Of a DNA stretch of 55,987 nt, positions 7,842-42,993 are shown in pieces. The position numbers were made by a program, and so were the translations under genes. The DNA comes from Desulfomonilaceae bacterium. GTDB lineage: Bacteria; Desulfobacterota; Desulfomonilia; Desulfomonilales; Desulfomonilaceae. Position 1 is the first letter of the stretch, and every line of letters begins with the position of its first letter. The notes under the pieces are model-generated. The model ran no database searches and was not told the DNA's origin. It saw only the letters and a program-made list of their open reading frames with translations. The stretch spans positions 1 through 55,987 of the forward strand of contig JAVHLK010000027.1 in the NCBI GenBank assembly GCA_031082285.1. Direction: 5' to 3'.

Positions 7842-9530
7842 ATGAAGATTCTGTTCAACGAATTCCTGTTTCTCTTCAATAAGAGACAAGAGAGAAGTAT
7901 TCGCATTCTCAGGAAGTTTCTTTTGCTTCTCCTGGTCTTGGTCTGTCTCTACACGGTCTTGTTTCACTTCGTGATGCTCCACGAGGACCGGCAGTTCAGT
8001 TGGATCACCGGTTTGTACTGGACCCTCACGGTCATGTCCACCCTCGGGTTCGGCGACATCACATTTTCCACCGATCTGGGAAAAGTGTTTTCCATCGTCG
8101 TGCTCCTTTCCGGAATCATCTTCCTCCTGACAATGCTCCCGTTCGTTTTTATCCAGTTCATCTACCTGCCCTGGCTGGAATCCCAGAGAGCTTCCATTGC
8201 GCCGAGGGAGTTGCCGGCGACAACGGAAAGACACGTTATCCTCACCGGTTATGATCCCATCTGCGTCAATTTGATGGAACTGCTGAAGCAGTACCGGTAC
8301 GACCATGTCCTCATCGAACCGGACATTCGGAAAGCCGTGGAACTTCATGATCTGGGATACCCCGTCCTCGTGGGCGAACCGGACGATCCCGCGACGTACA
8401 GGAGCGGGAGAGTTGAAAAGGCGGCACTCGTGTTTGCCAATATAGACGACATGGTCAATACCAATATTGCGTTCACGGTTCGCGAGATCACTCGGGAGAT
8501 TCCCATCGTTGCAAGCGCGGATCTTGACGATTCGGTGAATATTCTTGAACTTGCCGGTAGTTCGCACGTGTTTCAGTTCAAGAAAATGCTCGGCCACTCC
8601 ATGGCGAGGCGGGTACTGGGAACGAGCACAAAGGCAAACGTAATCGGGAATATTGATTCCTTGCTCATTGCCGAAGCATCGGCCATGAAGACATCGCTCG
8701 AAGGCAAGAACCTCGAGCAAGCCGAGTTGCGACAACGGTTCGGCATCACCGTGGTCGGAGTATGGGAACGGGGGAGATTACACATGCCCAGAGCCGAAAC
8801 CGTCATCACCCCGTCTTCCTTGTTGCTGCTTGCAGGGTCGGCCGAACAGCTTCGGGACTACGATGAGCACTTCTCGCGCGACAGAGATCCCGTGACGCGG
8901 GTACTCATTCTGGGCGGCGGACGGGTGGGCTGCGCAGCGGCTCAAATACTGGACGAGCGCGGCATTGACTACCGAATCATCGAAAAAAAACCCGCGCTTG
9001 TCAAAGACGAGCATTATGTGCAGGGGAGCGCGGCGGACATCAACACCCTGAAAACAGCCGGCATAGGACTGGCCCAAGCGGTTCTCGTCACGACGCATGA
9101 CGATCCCACGAATATCTATCTCAGCATCTACTGCAGGAAACTCCGGCCGGACATACGGATCATCAGCCGGGCGAATCATGACAGGAACGTTGCGCAGTTG
9201 CATTCCGCGGGCGCCGATCTTGTGTTGTCATATGGCTCCATGGCGGCCAACATGATCGTCAATCTTCTTATGCCCGGCGAGCACCTGATGATAGCGGAGG
9301 GGCTGTACGTCTTTCGCGTGGACGTGCACTCTTCTCTGGTCGGGAAACGCCTGAATGAAAGCCTGATCAGAAGGGATACCGGATGCAATGTGATTGCCGT
9401 CAACAACAAAGGCGACATGATCGCTAACCCGGATCCCTCTTTTCGCTTTGCCAAGGGACATGAGCTCATACTCATCGGGACCCACGACGCGGAACGCCGT
9501 TTTTTCGCAAGCTACTCGGAAAAGAGCTGA
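7842..9530 (+). CDS. Potassium channel with two RCK (TrkA) domains
   Basis: An inner-membrane K+ channel of the two-helix type with duplicated cytoplasmic nucleotide-sensing domains. Order: helix near residues 22-43; pore helix and filter T-L-G-F-G-D (the usual T-V-G-Y-G-D with two conservative changes); second helix near 80-105; first TrkA_N domain beginning R-H-V-I-L-T-G-Y-D; TrkA_C; second TrkA_N with the classic Rossmann start V-L-I-L-G-G-G-R-V-G; second TrkA_C to the end. The first RCK lacks the standard G-x-G-x-x-G (it has G-Y-D-P-I-C), so nucleotide binding there is doubtful. The frame also opens at ATG 7809; ATG 7842 was chosen because it begins the conserved hydrophobic part, but no strong ribosome site decides. 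It probably belongs with the antiporter and Usp genes as an ion-homeostasis group. Confidence 0.9.
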   Translation: MKILFNEFLFLFNKRQERSIRILRKFLLLLLVLVCLYTVLFHFVMLHEDRQFSWITGLYWTLTVMSTLGFGDITFSTDLGKVFSIVVLLSGIIFLLTMLPFVFIQFIYLPWLESQRASIAPRELPATTERHVILTGYDPICVNLMELLKQYRYDHVLIEPDIRKAVELHDLGYPVLVGEPDDPATYRSGRVEKAALVFANIDDMVNTNIAFTVREITREIPIVASADLDDSVNILELAGSSHVFQFKKMLGHSMARRVLGTSTKANVIGNIDSLLIAEASAMKTSLEGKNLEQAELRQRFGITVVGVWERGRLHMPRAETVITPSSLLLLAGSAEQLRDYDEHFSRDRDPVTRVLILGGGRVGCAAAQILDERGIDYRIIEKKPALVKDEHYVQGSAADINTLKTAGIGLAQAVLVTTHDDPTNIYLSIYCRKLRPDIRIISRANHDRNVAQLHSAGADLVLSYGSMAANMIVNLLMPGEHLMIAEGLYVFRVDVHSSLVGKRLNESLIRRDTGCNVIAVNNKGDMIANPDPSFRFAKGHELILIGTHDAERRFFASYSEKS

Positions 9531-9686
9531 AACCAAGGGTACCTGTCGTCCGTAGGCACGCTACGTTCAGTCCGCGACCCGTTGCCGTGCCGGCGGAACG
9601 CTTCTCGACCTATTCATTCATGCCGTACGGGAGCTTGGTTACCGCCGGCTCTTGGCGAAGAGAAGCGTACGTACTCAGGGACCAAG

Positions 9687-11195
9687 ATGAATCTTTCATA
9701 CATCATTGACGCCGCGGCCACGTATTTTGCGGACAAACCCGCGTTGATTTCCGGATCCGGAGCCTACACGTACGGCGAGCTTCGGACACGCATCAACCGC
9801 GTCGCGTCATGTCTCTTGGCTGAAGGCTTACAGCGCGGGGATATGGTGGCCCTCCACCTTCCCAACAGCGCCGAGTGGGTCGTTTCCTACTATGGCGTCA
9901 TCCGGGCGGGCGGAGTGGTATTATGCCTGAACCCCGCGTACAAGAGATACGAAATCGAGCACTTGCTGAGAGACTCGCAGCCGCGGCTGCTGATTACCTG
10001 TGAGAAGCTTGCGGACCGTGTTCCGGAAACCGGAGCGCTTCCCGGTCTTGATTCGGTCATCGTGTTCGAGTCCCATCCGGTCTTGTCAACCGTCCTTGAG
10101 ACCACGGACGGCTGCGATACATCACCGGCCCTGGTCCACACGGATGCGGACGACCCCTGCGTGATCCTGTACACAGGGGGCACCACGGGCACGCCCAAAG
10201 GCGCCATGCTGACTCACAGGAACATACTGTTCACGGCACATAACGTCTGCTATCACGAGCGGACTCGGCCGGAAGACAGGTCGCTCTGTTTCATGCCGCT
10301 CAACCACGTGTTCGGCGGCAATCACATCATGAACGGCATCTTCTACGGCTGCGGGACCCTGGTCCTGCACGACGGTTTTGACCTGGACCGTATCCTGGAC
10401 TCGTTGGTCACCGATCGAGTCACTCGTTTCTACGCGGTTCCCACGGTGTTTGTCAGGCTGCTGGCCCAACCGAAGCTCAGGCGTCATTTCTCCACGGTAA
10501 ATTACTGCTTTTCCGCGGCCACGAGCATGGCATCGGAAATCGTTCGAAAATGGCTGGAGACGTACGGTCTGACCATTCACGAAGCATACGGAATGACCGA
10601 GACCTCCTCCCTCGTAACCTACAATCACATGTACCGCCACAAGATCGGTTCCGTGGGCACACCGGCCGGAATCGTGGAAGTCGGGATAACGGATCCCGAC
10701 GGCAAGCCGGTTCCGACAGACCAAACCGGTGAAATAAGGGTTCGCGGGCCGAATGTCATGAAGGGATATCTGGGCAGACCGGCAGAGACTTCGGCCATGG
10801 TGCGCGACGGGTGGCTCCACACGGGGGATGTGGGCCGGATCGACCGAGACGGGTACCTGTTCATTGTTGACCGGATAAAAGACGTCATAATAACGGGAGG
10901 CTACAATGTGTTTCCTTCCGAGGTCGAGGAAGTTCTGTATCAGCATCCCGACATAAGCGAGTGTGCCGTCGTGGGTTTGGAGGACCGGGATTACGGGGAA
11001 GCCGTCACGGCGTTCGTGGTCGCAAAACAAGGCCGGCAGGTTGCCGCCGCGGAATTGATTTCGTTCTGCAAGGAACGGCTTGCATCCTACAAGGTCCCCA
11101 AGACGTTCAAGGTGGTTGCCGATCTCCCGAAATCCAGTACGGGCAAGATCTTGAGGCGAAAGATCCGGGACCCGGGAGAGCCTGCGTGCGGATAA
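9687..11195 (+). CDS. Acyl-CoA ligase (AMP-forming, class I adenylate-forming enzyme)
   Basis: A cytoplasmic enzyme that activates a carboxylic acid with ATP and CoA. The AMP-binding P-loop Y-T-G-G-T-T-G-T-P-K-G lies near residue 155, the adenine motif Y-G-M-T-E near 295, the T-G-D motif in W-L-H-T-G-D-V-G, the hinge D-R-I-K-D-V-I-I-T-G-G and the C-terminal catalytic lysine region S-S-T-G-K-I-L-R-R-K. Length 502 is normal. ATG 9687 has AGGGA upstream and starts the usual N-terminus; the frame is open to 9582 but those codons are not family-like. It stands alone between the K+ channel and a convergent Usp gene; its substrate cannot be told from sequence. Confidence 0.9.
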   Translation: MNLSYIIDAAATYFADKPALISGSGAYTYGELRTRINRVASCLLAEGLQRGDMVALHLPNSAEWVVSYYGVIRAGGVVLCLNPAYKRYEIEHLLRDSQPRLLITCEKLADRVPETGALPGLDSVIVFESHPVLSTVLETTDGCDTSPALVHTDADDPCVILYTGGTTGTPKGAMLTHRNILFTAHNVCYHERTRPEDRSLCFMPLNHVFGGNHIMNGIFYGCGTLVLHDGFDLDRILDSLVTDRVTRFYAVPTVFVRLLAQPKLRRHFSTVNYCFSAATSMASEIVRKWLETYGLTIHEAYGMTETSSLVTYNHMYRHKIGSVGTPAGIVEVGITDPDGKPVPTDQTGEIRVRGPNVMKGYLGRPAETSAMVRDGWLHTGDVGRIDRDGYLFIVDRIKDVIITGGYNVFPSEVEEVLYQHPDISECAVVGLEDRDYGEAVTAFVVAKQGRQVAAAELISFCKERLASYKVPKTFKVVADLPKSSTGKILRRKIRDPGEPACG

Positions 11196-35523: not shown

Positions 35524-35880
35524 CGCTGCCGCGGATTCCGGTCTCCGGGCTTTGACCAAGCCCTCCCGTGCTTCCTTTGTATCAAACCTCGGCCGGGGGG
35601 ATTTATCTGGAAAGGACACGGACACTTGGTTTTCACGCAACACATCCGTAACCCACGATAATTCCAATCCATTTCTGGAGGCTAGGTGACTAATCGGTGG
35701 TTGCCGTTCCCGCCGACGGAACGGGTCTTCCGGCTCCATGGTTTAAGCTGGAACCGGCGTTTTAACTCCCTGGAATGACCAGCCATTTACCCTAATGTAT
35801 ACGAAAAGACTTGCCTGTCGGGGAACGTGCCTTTAAGATAGTGAATTAAGGAAATTACTGTAGAAGGGAGGGAGGTCGTG
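35524..35880. other. Intergenic region before the RiPP-like cluster
   Basis: No gene. Holds a CCGTTCC/GGAACGG inverted repeat near 35705-35725 and the promoter at 35811-35839. The region may contain the terminator of the TPR gene, but no U-tract hairpin stands out. Confidence 0.4.
35811..35839 (+). promoter_or_regulatory. Candidate promoter for the SnoaL-like gene and downstream cluster
   Basis: TTGCCT (35811-35816), a 17-base spacer, TAAGAT (35834-35839), about 40 bases before the GTG start. Each box matches consensus at four of six bases. Confidence 0.4.
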
Positions 35881-36462
35881 GTGAGAAGAATCATGGTTTT
35901 GTTGGCCGTGCCGGCCTTAATTTGCATGTTTTGTGTCGTGCCGGCGGCAGCTCAGAAAGATGACGTGAAAGCAACGGTACCGAAAGCGGCCGCGGGTGAG
36001 GATCCGGCTGCCGGTCCAATTAAGCAATTGTTGGTCGATCATGCAAGGGCGTTCGAAGCGAAGAATCTTGACGTGGTGACGGGGATGTACGCCGACGATG
36101 CGATACTCATAGGTACGACTCCGAATCAGCGCTGGATTGGAAAGGAAGCAATTCGAAAGGCCCACCAGGAGTTTTTCCAGACTTTCGATAAAGAGACCAT
36201 TGCCTATGTGTGGCAAACGATCCGTGTGGCCGGGGACATGGCTTGGATGGCCGCGGACTGTAACGTGACAAGTGTCCTCGAAGGGACAACGGACGAATTC
36301 CCCCTCAACTGGACGGCCGTATTGGCGAAGAAAGATGGGAAATGGCAGTTCGTGCTCAGCCATTTTTCGAGCCCGGCATTCGGAGAAGGACTCGTGGGGG
36401 AACCGGATGAGGATGAAGGAGAGGCAGACCAGGAAGCCGCGGACACTGAAAAAGAAGATTAA
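35881..36462 (+). CDS. Secreted SnoaL/NTF2-like protein
   Basis: About 193 residues. An N-terminal signal peptide (L-L-A-V-P-A-L-I-C-M-F-C-V-V-P-A-A-A-Q) precedes an NTF2-like cone fold with D-H-A-R-A-F-E-A-K-N, Y-A-D-D-A-I-L-I-G-T and W-T-A-V-L-A-K-K-D-G-K-W-Q-F. The fold acts as ketosteroid isomerase, polyketide cyclase or a binding pocket; no catalytic assignment is possible. The tail is strongly acidic (many E and D in the last 25 residues). Two GTG codons (35878 and 35881) follow a GGGAGGGAGG site; the second has better spacing. It is 198 bases upstream of the Arg-Arg-Cys precursor and may be an exported partner of that peptide; its acidic tail could contact the basic peptide (inference). 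Confidence 0.75.
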   Translation: MRRIMVLLAVPALICMFCVVPAAAQKDDVKATVPKAAAGEDPAAGPIKQLLVDHARAFEAKNLDVVTGMYADDAILIGTTPNQRWIGKEAIRKAHQEFFQTFDKETIAYVWQTIRVAGDMAWMAADCNVTSVLEGTTDEFPLNWTAVLAKKDGKWQFVLSHFSSPAFGEGLVGEPDEDEGEADQEAADTEKED

Positions 36463-36659: not shown

Positions 36660-36959
36660 ATGGACCAGGATCGAAGGAGTGGAATGGATGAGAGGCTGCC
36701 GGAGGAGGAGCCGATTCAAACCAATACTGAGGAGCTGAGTGAAGAGGACCAAAGTAGACGTGAATTTCTGGGCGGCCTCGGCAAATGGTCTGCAGCTTTT
36801 GTGGGAATTGCCGCACTCAGCCTGGCATCAGGCAACGATGAGGCGGACGCGCAAATTCGTCGTTGCCGTCGTTGCCGTCGCTGTCGCCGCTGTCGCCGCT
36901 GCCGTCGCTGTAGGCGTTGTCGCCGCTGTCGTCGCTGCAGGCGCTGTCGTCGCTGCTGA
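36660..36959 (+). CDS. RiPP-like precursor with Tat leader and eleven Arg-Arg-Cys repeats
   Basis: 99 residues. An acidic N-terminal part (about 10-31, many Glu) is followed by S-R-R-E-F-L-G (32-38), a Tat twin-arginine motif; a hydrophobic stretch (about 43-57); A-D-A (62-64) as a signal peptidase site; then Q-I and eleven exact R-R-C triplets (67-99) up to the stop. Cleavage after residue 64 would leave a 35-residue peptide with 22 Arg and 11 Cys. The triplets use mixed codons (CGT, CGC, AGG; TGC, TGT), which shows that the peptide, not the DNA, is repeated. AAAGGAG precedes ATG by eight bases. With two radical SAM genes downstream, it looks like a substrate for post-translational crosslinking, exported folded through Tat. 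I know of no described family of this pattern. Confidence 0.8.
   Translation: MDQDRRSGMDERLPEEEPIQTNTEELSEEDQSRREFLGGLGKWSAAFVGIAALSLASGNDEADAQIRRCRRCRRCRRCRRCRRCRRCRRCRRCRRCRRC
36858..36956 (+). repeat. Eleven tandem 9-base units coding Arg-Arg-Cys
   Basis: Eleven consecutive 9-base units directly before the TGA. Adjacent units differ at synonymous positions: CGT/CGC/AGG for Arg and TGC/TGT for Cys. The unit never drifts out of phase and no unit carries an amino acid change. Confidence 0.95.
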
Positions 36960-37000
36960 CGCCGGCCCTGGTGATAGGTGAAGCGTGCTCGGAGATAAGA

Positions 37001-37037
37001 GCCTTTCCCCGGTGAGCCGATCATCCCGGGGAAAGGC
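37001..37037 (+). terminator. Strong hairpin between precursor and maturase genes
   Basis: GCCTTTCCCCGG (37001-37012) pairs perfectly with CCGGGGAAAGGC (37026-37037) across a 13-base loop, 41 bases after the precursor stop. No clear T-run follows, so it is likely a partial terminator or RNA-stability element that raises precursor over maturase levels, a common arrangement in RiPP operons. Confidence 0.6.
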
Positions 37038-37331
37038 CTCTTCACCAACCTCTCAAGTGGATAATCGTTTGTTCTCCCCGGTCGATCGGTTTCTCGGGTT
37101 TCTTGAGAGCGTGCTCACTCGGTTCCCAAGCCGAAGTTCCGTCCGTAATGCCTTCGGTGCATGGACGACATCGCGCTGCCGTCGTTTCCTCATTCGGATT
37201 TGTGCGGCCCGACGAGGGCATGACAAGGCAACCTCTCCCCTGAAACAGGCTGAACGCCGGCGGTTGTTCAGTTCATTTCCCAAGCAAGATCTCGGCTCAA
37301 ACCATCTCGAACACGGAGAGGCATAAGACTG
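37038..37331. other. Leader region before the radical SAM gene
   Basis: About 290 bases without a convincing gene; frames on both strands are short and lack ribosome sites. It may hold a promoter or extended leader for the maturase genes. Confidence 0.4.
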
Positions 37332-38465
37332 ATGAAAATTGACGGTCTCGATCTATTGATAAAACCCACCTTGGAATGCAATGCTCGATGTATTTACTGC
37401 CACTCGATGAAGCCTGCCAAGAAGATGACGTTGGACGTATTGGATACGTTGTTCAAGAAGGCGGCCGACTATGGGAAGAGAAAAGGTCTTTCAACCATTT
37501 CAGTAAACTGGCATGGGGGAGAACCGATGCTCATGGGGGCTGGGTTCTACAGGGATGCGTTGGAGATCCAGGACAAGTACTTCACGCGAGATCAAGTCCT
37601 TCACGGGATGCAGTCGAATGCCTGTCTGTACAAAGGAGAGGTGAGAGAAGCGCTCAAGGAACTTATGAACGAGAAAACCATGGGCGCGAGCTTTGATCCT
37701 TTTCATCCGACGAGAGGACTCATCAAGGGCGGAGACTCGTTCCCGGACGCCCTGGAGGGTTCCCTGGCCATGATGCAAGACGGCTTCTCAGTGGACATGA
37801 TTTATGTTATCCATAAGAAATCACTGGACGTTGTTCGGGAGGTCTACCATTTCTTCAAGAATATGAGAGTACAAGGAGTGCTGTTCCATCCTCTGGAGGA
37901 ATACCCGGGGAAGGAATACCGGTTGGAACCCGATGACTTGGCCGTGTTCCTCAGACGTCTCTGGGAAGTCTGGGAGGAGGATGATTACGAACTTGATATT
38001 TCGCCGCTTTCCGAATGGCGGGCGTTTCTCAAAGACCGCGAGCCGATCGATTCCTGCGATTTTGGGTTACCCTCAGGAAGCTCGCTCCATGTCACCGTTT
38101 CACCCGAAGGAAATCTCTATCCGTGCCCGCGGTTCCAGGACCGTGATCAATGCTGCATAGGCAACATACGTGACATGACCTTTGATGAGATAGAAGCGCA
38201 CCCGTACGCAAGTCTGGTCGTTAACAAGAAGACGAATCTTAATCCCGAGTGCCGTGCGTGCAAGTTCGTTCACTTGTGCAGATCCGGTTGTATCGCCACC
38301 CACGACGAGACCGGAAAGACAAGATGGTGCCAAGGACTGAAAGATTTCTTCACGTTTTTGGTCGCCAAGGAGAATATCCGTGATGCCGATCTACAATATT
38401 CCCGTGAATCTGCTGAATGCGTATCGGGAAAAGGATGTGATTGTGAGAGCGGGCAATGTGGCTGA
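37332..38465 (+). CDS. Radical SAM/SPASM peptide maturase
   Basis: 377 residues. The radical SAM cluster motif C-N-A-R-C-I-Y-C uses C16, C20 and C23, in the CxxxCxxC order; H-G-G-E-P follows at 61-65, typical of peptide maturases. The SPASM region (about 242-333) has C242, C265, C274/C275, C307, C310, C316, C320 and C333, enough for two auxiliary [4Fe-4S] clusters. The tail (363-376) adds four more Cys (C-V-S-G-K-G-C-D-C-E-S-G-Q-C), unusual for the family. It should generate a 5'-deoxyadenosyl radical and install thioether or C-C links on the repeats of the upstream peptide; which bond is unknown. Its last 86 bases overlap the next gene. ATG 37332 has GGAGAGG upstream. Confidence 0.9.
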   Translation: MKIDGLDLLIKPTLECNARCIYCHSMKPAKKMTLDVLDTLFKKAADYGKRKGLSTISVNWHGGEPMLMGAGFYRDALEIQDKYFTRDQVLHGMQSNACLYKGEVREALKELMNEKTMGASFDPFHPTRGLIKGGDSFPDALEGSLAMMQDGFSVDMIYVIHKKSLDVVREVYHFFKNMRVQGVLFHPLEEYPGKEYRLEPDDLAVFLRRLWEVWEEDDYELDISPLSEWRAFLKDREPIDSCDFGLPSGSSLHVTVSPEGNLYPCPRFQDRDQCCIGNIRDMTFDEIEAHPYASLVVNKKTNLNPECRACKFVHLCRSGCIATHDETGKTRWCQGLKDFFTFLVAKENIRDADLQYSRESAECVSGKGCDCESGQCG

Positions 38466-39210
38466 CTTGATTGCCCTGGTCGGTCGCATTTCCCTCAAGA
38501 ATATGGAGGCGGTTGAGTTAATCGGCATTCCTGCCGACATCGAGTTGCTATCTCAGTTGGACGAACACGTGGAAGTCGATCTCGTGCTGCAGGACGGCGA
38601 ACGGGAACTCACTCGTTTGGAGGCCTTGCGTGAGTCCGGTGTGGCGGAAGACATTCAAATCGTTGTACCGGTTGCTCCGGGATTCGGCGAAGCAGCCAAG
38701 CTTGCTTGCCGTCTGGGATACCCCGTCAAGCTGAACATCGGGGCGCTCGACTTGCTGGACGTGGAAGAGAATCTGGATCTTGTGAACTTTTATCTCCACA
38801 CTCCCGACCTGGAGGAGCCGCTGGAGTTTTTTCATTCCTTTGCGCAGGCCCTGTTCAACGAGGAAGCTCTGACCATGTGGGACATAATGGACGAAAATCC
38901 TGCGGAAGTGAGATACATCACCGACCAAGGGAATGAAGTCCTGTCCCGGAGGCTGACCCACATGCCCGTCACGGGAGACATGAGCGATTTTCTCGATCGG
39001 CGTAAGTTACAATTGCTCCGAGAGCGAGGCGAATGCAGCCAATGCCGCTTCTTCGTCAATTGCAACGGGTACTTCAAGTTACCGAACCCGGAATTCAGTT
39101 GCGACGGAGTGAAGCGGATTTTCGGTACTCTCAAGGAAGCCGTGAAGAAACTCCAGGAAGATGTCGACAAGTTTTACGATGAATTTGAGGAAGGCCCGGA
39201 AAAAGGTTGA
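38380..39210 (+). CDS. SPASM/Twitch-like protein without radical SAM cysteines
   Basis: 276 residues beginning M-M-P-I-Y-N-I-P-V-N. It lacks a CxxxCxxC motif. The C-terminal region has C219, C222, C228 and C241 (C-S-Q-C-R-F-F-V-N-C-N-G-Y-F), like a SPASM or Twitch cluster site. The first two thirds contain TIM-barrel-like strands (V-E-L-I-G-I-P, I-V-V-P-V-A-P, V-K-L-N-I-G-A-L-D-L-L). This suggests a degenerate radical SAM partner that recognises the leader or escorts the peptide. GTG 38380 and ATG 38383 both follow an AAGGAG. It overlaps the maturase by 86 bases, so translation is coupled. Similar pseudo-radical-SAM partners are known in some peptide systems. Confidence 0.7.
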   Translation: MMPIYNIPVNLLNAYREKDVIVRAGNVADLIALVGRISLKNMEAVELIGIPADIELLSQLDEHVEVDLVLQDGERELTRLEALRESGVAEDIQIVVPVAPGFGEAAKLACRLGYPVKLNIGALDLLDVEENLDLVNFYLHTPDLEEPLEFFHSFAQALFNEEALTMWDIMDENPAEVRYITDQGNEVLSRRLTHMPVTGDMSDFLDRRKLQLLRERGECSQCRFFVNCNGYFKLPNPEFSCDGVKRIFGTLKEAVKKLQEDVDKFYDEFEEGPEKG

Positions 39211-39511
39211 TCCGGTATGACAGTTCGTTCCCACGAATTCCGTCGTACGGCGCTGAATGTGTGCGAAAAGAGCCGAGGAGCAATTGGCTGCGACGGCAGG
39301 GGGTCTCAATATGTTGGACTATGTTGCCGCGGCCCGTCGAGAAAGCAACGGAGCTTCGTTCGCACGTTCCGGGGGCCGGAGTTGTGGGGACAATGAATAG
39401 GCAGGACAAAGGTACGGCGGGCTCGTCACGAAACGCGGTTCCTTAAGCACCACCCCTCTCGGCATCTTGAATTTATTACCGATCAAGTCTCACATGAAGG
39501 AGAACATGCGC
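39211..39511. other. Gap between SPASM-like and B12-radical SAM genes
   Basis: No gene seen in 301 bases. The last part carries the ribosome site of the next gene. Confidence 0.4.
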
Positions 39512-41251
39512 ATGACTCGTACGGCACTGCTCTTGGGGATGCCGTTCTGGATCGTTGACTATCCCTTACATTCACTCGGTTACGTGGCCGGCATCTTCAC
39601 ACAGGCCGGCTGGCGGTGCCGAATCGAAGACTTCAACATCAAGGTGTTCAGATTCATGAAGACCGAGAAGGGTGACGACTGGTTTTCCCTCGACGGCATC
39701 CTGTGGGACGACGATGACCCCCTCGCATTTTACGACGAACATAGAGACGACATCGAGGACGCCTTGAGAGCGATCTTGGAAGAAGGCGACTTCGATCTCG
39801 TCGCCTTCTCGGTCAGCAGCTCCTCCGCGGACTTCGCACTGGAGGCATCGAGTTTCATAAAGTCCTTGGTCCCGCACGTGCCCGTTCTCTTCGGGGGGCC
39901 CGACTGTTTTCCGTCTGAACACGGAACACGCTATTTTGAGGAAGAGGGTGCACCGGACATCATCTGCCAGGGGGAAGCCGAGATCTGTTTACCGCAATTT
40001 CTCGGAGAATTCGAGACTACGGGCGATTACCGGACGTCGTGCAAGGGTTTCGTGTACCGAGCGGGTGAAGATCTCATAGACACGGGGGAGCCCGAAATTC
40101 CACGATTCGACCGCGGACTGGTTCATCCGGACTGGTCTCAAATCGACTTCTCCCTCTATAAGCAGCCCGGCGACTTTCCGACCTTTCTCAGTCGAGGGTG
40201 CGTGAACAGGTGCGCGTTTTGCAGTGAATCAAACAACTTCAAGCGTTTCAGAGTAAGAAAGCCCGCGGAGGTCATGGCGGAGATCAAGGAATCAGTGCGC
40301 CGTGTATCACGGTTCACCGATCGTCCCACCATCCATTTTTCAGATTCGCTCATCAACGGGAACATGAGGAGGTTGGAGGAATTCTGTGACCTTCTCTTGG
40401 AATCGGGCCTCACTCTCCAATGGACGGCTTCGGCCCGTTTAAGGCCGGAGATGACACATCCCGTACTCGAGAAAATGAAGAAATCCGGCTGTAAGGAACT
40501 CCACTGGGGTCTCGAATCGACGTGCCAAAAGGTACTCGATTTGATGAACAAGAACTGCCGATGGGACGTGGCGAAGCGGGTTCTCCTCGACGCTCACGCG
40601 GTCGGCATCAGAAATGCGATCACCCTGATTGTGGGATTTCCCGGTGAAACGGTTCAGGATTTTGTGGAATCGGCCCTTTCCGTCATGGAGATACGAGATT
40701 GCGCATTTTTCTACGAACCCAACATGCTTTCCGTCGAGCCGAATAGTCCCCTTCACGAAAACTACGAGAAATGGGGGTTGCAGGACAATTCCTGCGATGA
40801 CTGGATAACCGCGGATGAGAGAAATGATGAGGAAGTTCGAATCCTCAGGAGATTCGTGATGAGCAACGTGGTGTTCAATCCTACGTTGGCTCTCAAATCC
40901 CTTGACGATGGGGATGAACTTTCCGGTTTGGATCTCAATCAGTTTTCAGTGGCCTCGGAGCTTGCAGGCATGCTGTACGAGATGTGGATGCTCGCCGGCA
41001 AGCAGACCGGAGCGGCGAAATTCCTGAGCACCTGGAACGGGAGGCCCGTCGAAGACCTGGAGATCTCCCACGACGAGATCCTCTACTGGAGGCCGTCGAA
41101 TGTGCCCGGTACGATTGACCTGACCGGCTGGTTCTCGACCGATAAGACCTCCAGACAAGCCAAGCTGGTGATTGTGAAACACATTCTCGAAGGGTTTCGA
41201 CAGGCGTACGCTCATACTCACCGGAGCGAGGTCGAAAGCGTCTCACTGTAA
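39512..41251 (+). CDS. B12-binding-domain radical SAM protein
   Basis: 579 residues from ATG 39512, chosen because an AAGGAG nine bases upstream fits it better than the upstream starts 39467, 39494 and 39506. The N-terminal cobalamin-like domain (about 1-165) has F-D-L-V-A-F-S-V-S-S and L-F-G-G-P-D-C but no clear D-x-H-x-x-G, so B12 would bind base-off without a His ligand, if at all. The radical SAM motif is C-V-N-R-C-A-F-C (C230, C234, C237), followed by a barrel with L-H-W-G-L-E-S. Family members catalyse radical methylations or ring contractions. Following the RRC cluster it may methylate carbon atoms of the peptide, perhaps Arg; this is inference. Confidence 0.8.
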   Translation: MTRTALLLGMPFWIVDYPLHSLGYVAGIFTQAGWRCRIEDFNIKVFRFMKTEKGDDWFSLDGILWDDDDPLAFYDEHRDDIEDALRAILEEGDFDLVAFSVSSSSADFALEASSFIKSLVPHVPVLFGGPDCFPSEHGTRYFEEEGAPDIICQGEAEICLPQFLGEFETTGDYRTSCKGFVYRAGEDLIDTGEPEIPRFDRGLVHPDWSQIDFSLYKQPGDFPTFLSRGCVNRCAFCSESNNFKRFRVRKPAEVMAEIKESVRRVSRFTDRPTIHFSDSLINGNMRRLEEFCDLLLESGLTLQWTASARLRPEMTHPVLEKMKKSGCKELHWGLESTCQKVLDLMNKNCRWDVAKRVLLDAHAVGIRNAITLIVGFPGETVQDFVESALSVMEIRDCAFFYEPNMLSVEPNSPLHENYEKWGLQDNSCDDWITADERNDEEVRILRRFVMSNVVFNPTLALKSLDDGDELSGLDLNQFSVASELAGMLYEMWMLAGKQTGAAKFLSTWNGRPVEDLEISHDEILYWRPSNVPGTIDLTGWFSTDKTSRQAKLVIVKHILEGFRQAYAHTHRSEVESVSL

Positions 41252-41739: not shown

Positions 41740-42993
41740 TTAGCCTTTCATGGATATTTCGGAGACTCTTGCCGATGGTATAGTGAAACACCCCAAGTGA
41801 TACCGACCTGTGAGCATATGGTCGTCTCCAATCTCCAAGTTGTCCTTCTCGCCGCTCTTTGAAGTGACCTCGAAGGTGCATGCCGTCTCTCTGCCGAGGC
41901 GCACAAGCGAACAAATTTTGTCAAGTTCTACCCGAACTTGTGCCTCTCCCATTCTGGCCGGCAGTTCGGTGTTACCGTCGATTCTCAAATCTGTGACCGT
42001 CGTCTTCACCCCTTTGACGTCGATGACTTCCCAAGAGGAGGAGCTGGTGTGAGCCACCGATTGGTGAGCGCTGGCATGGAAAGCAAGGCCGTACGCAACA
42101 AAATCCGCCAAGATTTCAAGACATTCTTCAATCGTGTGCCTGGAATCAACTTGCAGCCATTGGCCAAGGCTTTCCGCGAGGGCCAAGAGAAAGTATGAGG
42201 CGAGCGCCGAGTCGATTTCGCGAATGGTGCCGGCCCTCTGTGCCTTCTCGACGTCACGCTGAAGGGGCCAGGCAAGTAGCTTCAGGGACTCTCTTGCTTT
42301 TTCGGCCAACTCGGGATCTTCCCCCCCGGATACAATCCTGGCCTGATTGATGATCCCGCTGTAACCGGAAAATGCCTCGACAAAGGCATGCACCCGCTTC
42401 TTCATCCTTCGGAAGAAGTCGGTCTCTCTAATTATTTCATCCCAAGACTCAGGTGGGACAACAACGAGCCTCAATTGCTCGATGCACTCCATGAAGAGAT
42501 CTTCCTTGTTCTTGAAGTACACGTAGAAAGTCGACTTTCCCATGTGAAGAGCATCGGCGATGTCGCTAATGCGGACCTCGCTATAAGGTCTCCGGGAAAA
42601 AAGGTCCGTCGCGGTTTTCAGGATTTGCTGTCTCTTTACCTCGATCGCCGGGTGGTCCATCTCCTCATCAAGCCGGTGGCTCATCAAGGAATCATCCTGC
42701 AAGAGAGCCCTGTCCTCGTGGTTTTCCAAAGACCAATTCCGAGCATCCAGGATTTCCTTGATCCGTGCGAGAGGCAGGTTCGCTGTCTCCCTCAACCTTC
42801 TGATCTCTTTGAGTCTGGCGAGGTGTAATTCGTCGTAGAGGCGCACGGCAAGACCGGCCTGTAAAGGTTTTGGCAACAACCCCAGATTCAAATAATGATG
42901 GATCAAGGACTTCTTGATTCCCGATTCCTGGGACAGCTGTCCAATCTTCAACAGCCTTGGTTTGCCTTGGCGCGGATTTCTCTCCTGTGGCAC
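41740..42993 (-). CDS. MerR-TetR fusion transcriptional regulator
   Basis: 417 residues with two DNA-binding heads. Residues 14-85 form a MerR HTH (L-L-K-I-G-Q-L-S-Q-E-S-G-I, H-H-Y-L-N-L-G-L-L). Residues about 120-165 form a TetR HTH (R-Q-Q-I-L-K-T-A-T-D-L-F, I-S-D-I-A-D-A-L-H-M-G-K-S-T-F-Y-V-Y-F). A TetR ligand-pocket domain follows to about 300, then a strand-rich extension (about 318-417, W-E-V-I-D-V-K-G-V-K-T-T-V-T-D-L-R) I cannot name. GTG start with GGGAG upstream. It is divergent from the acyl-CoA ligase operon and probably controls it and itself, with an acyl-CoA or related compound as effector. A MerR-TetR fusion is uncommon. Confidence 0.85.
   Translation of the reverse strand: MPQERNPRQGKPRLLKIGQLSQESGIKKSLIHHYLNLGLLPKPLQAGLAVRLYDELHLARLKEIRRLRETANLPLARIKEILDARNWSLENHEDRALLQDDSLMSHRLDEEMDHPAIEVKRQQILKTATDLFSRRPYSEVRISDIADALHMGKSTFYVYFKNKEDLFMECIEQLRLVVVPPESWDEIIRETDFFRRMKKRVHAFVEAFSGYSGIINQARIVSGGEDPELAEKARESLKLLAWPLQRDVEKAQRAGTIREIDSALASYFLLALAESLGQWLQVDSRHTIEECLEILADFVAYGLAFHASAHQSVAHTSSSSWEVIDVKGVKTTVTDLRIDGNTELPARMGEAQVRVELDKICSLVRLGRETACTFEVTSKSGEKDNLEIGDDHMLTGRYHLGCFTIPSARVSEISMKG

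Follow-up and report, generated by a model that had tools for sequence, protein, structure and literature searches.

Comparison with Known RiPP Systems

Strained cyclophane RiPPs are characterised by the motif aromatic-x-Asn (PMC9062424; PMC11002830). The triceptide systems (XncB, OscB/GrrM, ChlB) are comparable to a locus found in a stretch of 55,987 nucleotides from a Desulfomonilaceae bacterium (contig JAVHLK010000027.1), hereafter "the window", which encodes a predicted precursor ending in eleven Arg-Arg-Cys (RRC) repeats. The resemblance lies in a radical SAM/SPASM maturase and a three-residue repeat, and most relatives of the locus carry aromatic-x-Asn. In contrast with triceptide systems, the window has a Tat-type leader with a KWS motif, a pseudo-radical-SAM partner and a core devoid of aromatics: the aromatic residue at position 1, a criterion for triceptides, is absent from the window core and present in most relatives.

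Sactipeptide and ranthipeptide systems also combine a radical SAM/SPASM enzyme with a Cys-rich core, and the modelled structure of the window maturase matches that of the thioether synthase 5why/5wgg. However, the window has its own leader, its own partner and a strict RRC repeat. Ryptides (Arg-Tyr, the "RRR" system) share an Arg-rich core and a radical SAM maturase; the window core contains no Tyr, and their exclusion in an initial annotation of this DNA stands. Fixed Cys spacing beside a radical SAM enzyme is likewise found in CXXX-repeat peptides (TIGR04117) and in the Cys-every-fifth system (CefA/CefB). In the window, Cys recurs every third residue together with Arg-Arg, while the interval in TIGR04117 is every fourth. 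Weak leader matches in two relatives had suggested TIGR04117, but membership was rejected: the window gave no match at E ≤ 0.1, and 0 of 198 genomes of the phylum scored over the cut-off.

Bufferins are copper-binding RiPPs modified by MNIO enzymes, with a Sec signal and a separate partner that has been proposed to mask the signal (PMC12452194). A precursor with an N-terminal signal peptide, a Cys-containing core and a separate partner protein are features in common with the window, which differs in having a radical SAM enzyme instead of an MNIO enzyme, and a Tat-type signal instead of a Sec signal.

The Precursor Gene

The features of the locus are as follows:

35878–36462, plus strand: SnoaL/DUF4440-like protein with an N-terminal signal-like segment; a homologue is present in the loci of nine relatives, upstream of the precursor in eight of them
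36660–36959, plus strand: predicted precursor gene, with acidic N-terminus, Tat-type signal containing the family motif SRREFLGGLGKWS, AxA cleavage site and core QI(RRC)11
36858–36956, plus strand: repeat array of eleven in-frame 9-nt units, each encoding Arg-Arg-Cys, in seven distinct DNA versions, all synonymous
36998–37045, plus strand: strong RNA hairpin between the precursor and maturase genes, without a T-run
37332–38465, plus strand: type A radical SAM/SPASM maturase, with CNARCIYC, SPASM cysteines and a Cys-rich C-terminal tail ECVSGKGCDCESGQCG
38383–39210, plus strand: putative pseudo-radical-SAM/SPASM partner, with no CX3CX2C and four SPASM-like Cys (218, 221, 227, 240)

Translation of 36660–36959 yields 99 amino acids that close with exactly 11 RRC units, the last of them directly followed by the stop. 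A strong Shine-Dalgarno-like sequence, AAAGGAG, is found just 5′ of the start codon. Residues 1–31 include 12 acidic and 3 basic residues, and are followed by SRREFL, a hydrophobic run and ADA-QI. Cleavage after ADA would release QI(RRC)11, a product of 35 aa made of Q, I, R and C only, with no aromatic residue and no Tyr. The gene structure given in the initial annotation (99 codons, acidic leader, SRREFL, hydrophobic run, ADA and eleven RRC triplets) is thus confirmed, and the gene content of the neighborhood (a radical SAM/SPASM gene, a SPASM-like partner and a B12-radical SAM gene) is as described there. A single copy of the RRC precursor was found in the 5.6 Mb genome.

The 11 RRC units have 7 distinct 9-nt spellings, joined by at least 7 substitutions, 100% of which are synonymous. 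The random expectation is about 25% synonymous, and 0.25^7 is approximately 7e-5, a rough value as it considers distinct spellings only and takes the substitutions as independent. Because the units differ only synonymously, the repeat appears to have been selected as protein, an observation that speaks for selection at the peptide level and not for chance or simple slippage.

Several features typical of Tat substrates are present: an S/T-R-R-x-F-L-K-like motif, a hydrophobic run, an AxA site, and TatC in the genome. The motif and the presence of TatC lead us to describe the signal as Tat-type and to predict use of Tat by the precursor. Judged by its sequence, 36660–36959 is a RiPP precursor whose family had no named model in our searches and is made up of an RRxFLxxLxKWS leader, at least one radical SAM/SPASM enzyme and a pseudo-radical-SAM partner; the leader motif, the AxA site and the genomic TatC agree with the early proposal of a RiPP precursor with a Tat-type leader.

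The Maturase and Its Partner

Both the radical SAM (CX3CX2C) and the SPASM cysteines of the maturase are intact. No named equivalog or subfamily model of NCBIfam reached its cut-off; the nearest by score were anaerobic sulfatase maturase (anSME), DynA, TIGR04083, GrrM/OscB and PapB. The anSME model gave 138 bits (cut-off 349), the best of the cyclophane-enzyme models (GrrM/OscB, AmcB, YhhB, FxsB) gave 68.7 bits (cut-off 310), and the CefB model scored 47 (cut-off 600). When predicted structures were compared, the matches were anSME (Z 33.8, 3.0 Å, 334 residues), the cyclophane synthase ChlB (Z 32.9) and the thioether synthase 5why/5wgg (Z 27.5). In anSME, we take the general base (Asp277 of the C. 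perfringens protein) to be the residue that directly follows the SPASM Cys; at this position, the window maturase has Pro, that of a sister genus has His, and that of a more divergent relative, G017, has Val. With a score under the cut-off and a Pro where the Asp base would be expected, the maturase falls outside the anSME family. A PADLOC analysis gave weak generic radical SAM matches only. The sole weak match in a maturase scan of genome contigs (L006, Spirochaetes) was discarded on reading as an unrelated ORF.

Maturases of this family fall into two types. Type A enzymes have HGGEP and no Asp after the SPASM Cys, while type B enzymes have QGGE[VI] and QCD; the split has support of 1.0 in a tree built without an outgroup.

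The last 83 nt of the maturase gene are shared with the partner gene, whose product had no family match in model searches. The best match of the predicted structure (pLDDT 90) was the ChlB–leader complex (Z 14.5, 3.3 Å, 249 residues), detected by VIA-align, which revealed the radical SAM/SPASM fold; Foldseek alone returned no match below E 0.001. CX3CX2C is present in 0 of 14 partner homologues. On the basis of the model, the partner can be read as a catalytically dead radical SAM/SPASM protein, and it plausibly binds the leader. The gene was found in no plasmid record. The initial assignment of a radical SAM/SPASM maturase with a partner is thus upheld by intact Cys motifs, by adjacency to the precursor and by conservation of the leader in relatives.

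Relatives of the Locus and Their Cores

A search of the phylum for the partner identified 8 of 395 genomes, and a search of the order added six. The closest maturase homologue (51%) belongs to another genus of the family (G013, the sister genus mentioned above), where it adjoins two precursors (n = 2) that have the same leader and the cores SWRCARCRCRCRCKCIL and SWRCWRCWRCRCRCRCRCRCICL. The Arg/Cys core type of this genus can be written WRCWRCWRC(RC)n. The initial annotation had named as a sign of error that homologues of the maturase never stand beside such a peptide; the actual observation is the opposite. In the sister-genus locus (L007), the precursors with WRC/(RC)n cores, 8435–8710 and 9043–9333, are adjacent; the partner gene runs in the opposite direction and is separated from the maturase gene by a sensor-like gene. 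As an intermediate, this locus usefully links WxN cores with RRC cores.

A more distant maturase homologue (35%) is found in G017, and the core of this genome holds RRGC and two WGN. The G017 cluster, which thus joins both motifs in one core, contains type A and also a 689-aa protein (3926–5995 of L008) made of a type B radical SAM/SPASM half and a second radical SAM half.

The precursors of relatives keep RRxFxxxLxKWS, with R, R and F invariant in 13 relatives. Their cores are mostly composed of 6–11 Trp-x-Asn motifs among Gly-rich linkers; the core of G372 has Tyr-x-Asn, and those of G112 are Tyr-rich. The leader, the partner and the exported SnoaL-like neighbor are common to Trp-x-Asn precursors, and the first two also to the Tyr-rich ones. 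Because Aro-x-Asn is a motif of cyclophane RiPPs, we infer triceptide-like chemistry in the relatives that carry it. Hence, as far as shared sequence elements can tell, the window system belongs as a branch to a family whose cores are mostly aromatic, and is not the isolated new class initially envisaged. The early decision to set triceptides aside is sound for the window core, which lacks aromatics, but too strong for the family, given its triceptide motif and the W-R-C of the sister genus.

Individual relatives show peculiarities. In G372, the precursor (10136–10537 of L021) has Tyr-x-Asn-Tyr repeats, and an extra 326-aa gene with a radical SAM look (9043–10023) had no NCBIfam match at 1e-15. 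No precursor was found beside the partner in G112, and two Tyr-rich precursors with the KWS leader (1480–1776 and 2208–2534 of L050, contig C4) are located on another contig, away from the maturases; a lipobox-like AGC/TGC follows their hydrophobic run. In G413, the partner is broken, and neither a leader motif nor a precursor beside the partner was found; the region 4422–6354 of L040, where a partner with an in-frame stop accompanies a split type B maturase, is apparently a decaying copy. A leader search in the whole class of the window (42 genomes) detected no further Arg/Cys member.

Correlation between Leader, Partner, Core and Maturase Type

Among the 395 genomes of the phylum, a leader match was found in 8/8 partner-bearing genomes, and a strong one in 1 of the 387 partner-less genomes (G151, whose Trp-x-Asn precursor is cut by the contig end). 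Co-occurrence of leader and partner is supported by a Fisher value of 6.6e-16; seven of the eight genomes with the partner had, however, served to train the leader model, and p becomes 0.005 when these are left out. Weaker leader matches elsewhere (best 3e-5) corresponded, in those read, to ordinary Tat-signal proteins or unrelated ORFs.

Type B is present in 9/9 Trp-x-Asn-core genomes for which a maturase gene was available; G017 has both types. In the genomes of the window and of the sister genus, both with Arg/Cys cores, type B was found nowhere. The correlation between core and maturase type (Fisher p 0.018, eleven genomes, uncorrected for descent) is weak because Arg/Cys cores occur in just two genera. 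A Cys-rich tail (EC..GCxCE-like) ends both Arg/Cys-type maturases and was not seen in the others. From these sequences, the Arg/Cys branch seems to have swapped substrate and enzyme together.

Proposed Explanation and Alternatives

Our main interpretation, with a probability of roughly 0.6, is that the locus encodes a Tat-exported radical SAM RiPP that has its leader/partner chassis in common with Trp-x-Asn (triceptide-like) systems and carries an Arg/Cys-type core and maturase. The sequence basis is a common RRxFLxxLxKWS leader with an AxA site, a common partner, a (W/R)-R-C/(RC)n core, and type A without type B. Modification of Arg/Cys at each repeat is likely, and the branch may carry out new Arg/Cys chemistry. 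As the window core lacks aromatics, the known aromatic chemistry of the nearest motif family is not simply transferable.

Direct triceptide chemistry would place R1-R2-C3 in the W1-x2-N3 frame, with a C–C crosslink from i to i+2 and Arg/Cys in place of the aromatic. The repeat length of three is in its favor, as are the W-R-C of the sister genus, which fits the W1-x2-N3 frame, the rank of ChlB as second-best structural match of the maturase, and the W-x-N of related systems. However, the absence of aromatics from the window core and of the WxN-associated type B enzyme from both Arg/Cys genomes makes this chemistry less likely, and we consider it improbable; moreover, we know of no characterised triceptide enzyme that uses a non-aromatic residue 1. 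Little credence is also given to anSME-like chemistry on Cys only, in which removal of H from the Cys β-carbon would lead to formylglycine or a thioaldehyde-derived product. anSME acts on Cys and is the closest solved enzyme by sequence and structure, but the maturase scores far under the anSME cut-off, the RRC core has no P/A at +2 as in the anSME recognition motif, and the presumed Asp base is replaced by Pro, His or Val. The formylglycine route is less likely precisely because that base is absent.

It is conceivable, though again unlikely, that the core stays unmodified and is exported as a polycationic, Cys-rich peptide with disulfides or metal, and that the maturase serves a different target or modifies a different peptide. 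With its 11 thiols and 22 guanidinium groups, the core could indeed function as it is. This idea is at odds with the location of the precursor, 5′ of the maturase and co-directional with it, and with the close co-occurrence of leader and partner; besides, no other leader-bearing peptide was found in the genome of the window. Hardly credible is the notion of a degenerate leftover, in which repeats expanded within a WxN precursor that was decaying and had lost its function. Pure RRC is found in one genome only, and the core is wholly unlike that of most relatives; yet all differences between units are synonymous, the frame is open up to the stop, maturase and partner are intact, and two genes of the sister genus have retained Arg/Cys cores.

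An extension of the main interpretation, which we offer tentatively and at somewhat less than even odds, is that a phylum-wide chassis swaps enzymes with cores, and that the Arg/Cys branch makes eleven undescribed Arg–Cys or Cys β-carbon crosslinks before the product leaves through Tat. In the main interpretation, the partner would hold the leader and keep Tat away until modification. The type A enzyme would proceed repeat by repeat, with a 5′-deoxyadenosyl radical taking H from Cys or from a neighboring Arg, and a short bond would be closed in each unit. A Cys-to-Arg or Cys β-carbon bond is deemed most likely because the repeats contain just Arg and Cys. The modified precursor would then exit through Tat, and signal peptidase, acting at ADA, would release a highly cationic peptide of 35 residues. 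Its use is a guess: the peptide might bind metals or thiols, attach to surfaces or act on competitors, periplasmic metal/thiol chemistry being our first choice.

The Arg-Arg-Cys repeat is now tied to a conserved RiPP family, which offers a natural comparison: leader and partner are constant, and maturase and core differ. Three questions become testable: how radical SAM enzymes come to accept Trp-x-Asn or Arg/Cys as substrate, whether a radical SAM protein devoid of catalysis can act as leader-binding partner, and whether Tat exports a RiPP after crosslinking. No description of the family was found in a literature search that covered mostly open-access papers.

Other Parts of the Locus

The hairpin region between the precursor and maturase genes (36985–37055) has a folding energy of −32.9 kcal/mol (z −4.05). 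A terminator scan found none, in keeping with the lack of a T-run; the hairpin may restrict read-through or make the precursor mRNA more stable.

A B12-radical SAM gene lies 3′ of the partner (39467–41251). The initial annotation listed it with the system, but it is not conserved there: a homologue was found in 0 of 14 related loci and in 0 of 17 other genomes of the family at 1e-30, and the gene was rejected as a member. Two 43% paralogues are found elsewhere in the same genome, on contig C302. Near them are another B12/radical-SAM-like gene and an ORF whose N-terminal stretch resembles PqqD (L078); this region is perhaps another peptide-modifying cluster. Further downstream in the window, 41740–42993 on the minus strand encodes, by reading, a TetR-like regulator that carries a fused MerR-like N-terminus, with acyl-CoA metabolism genes adjoining.
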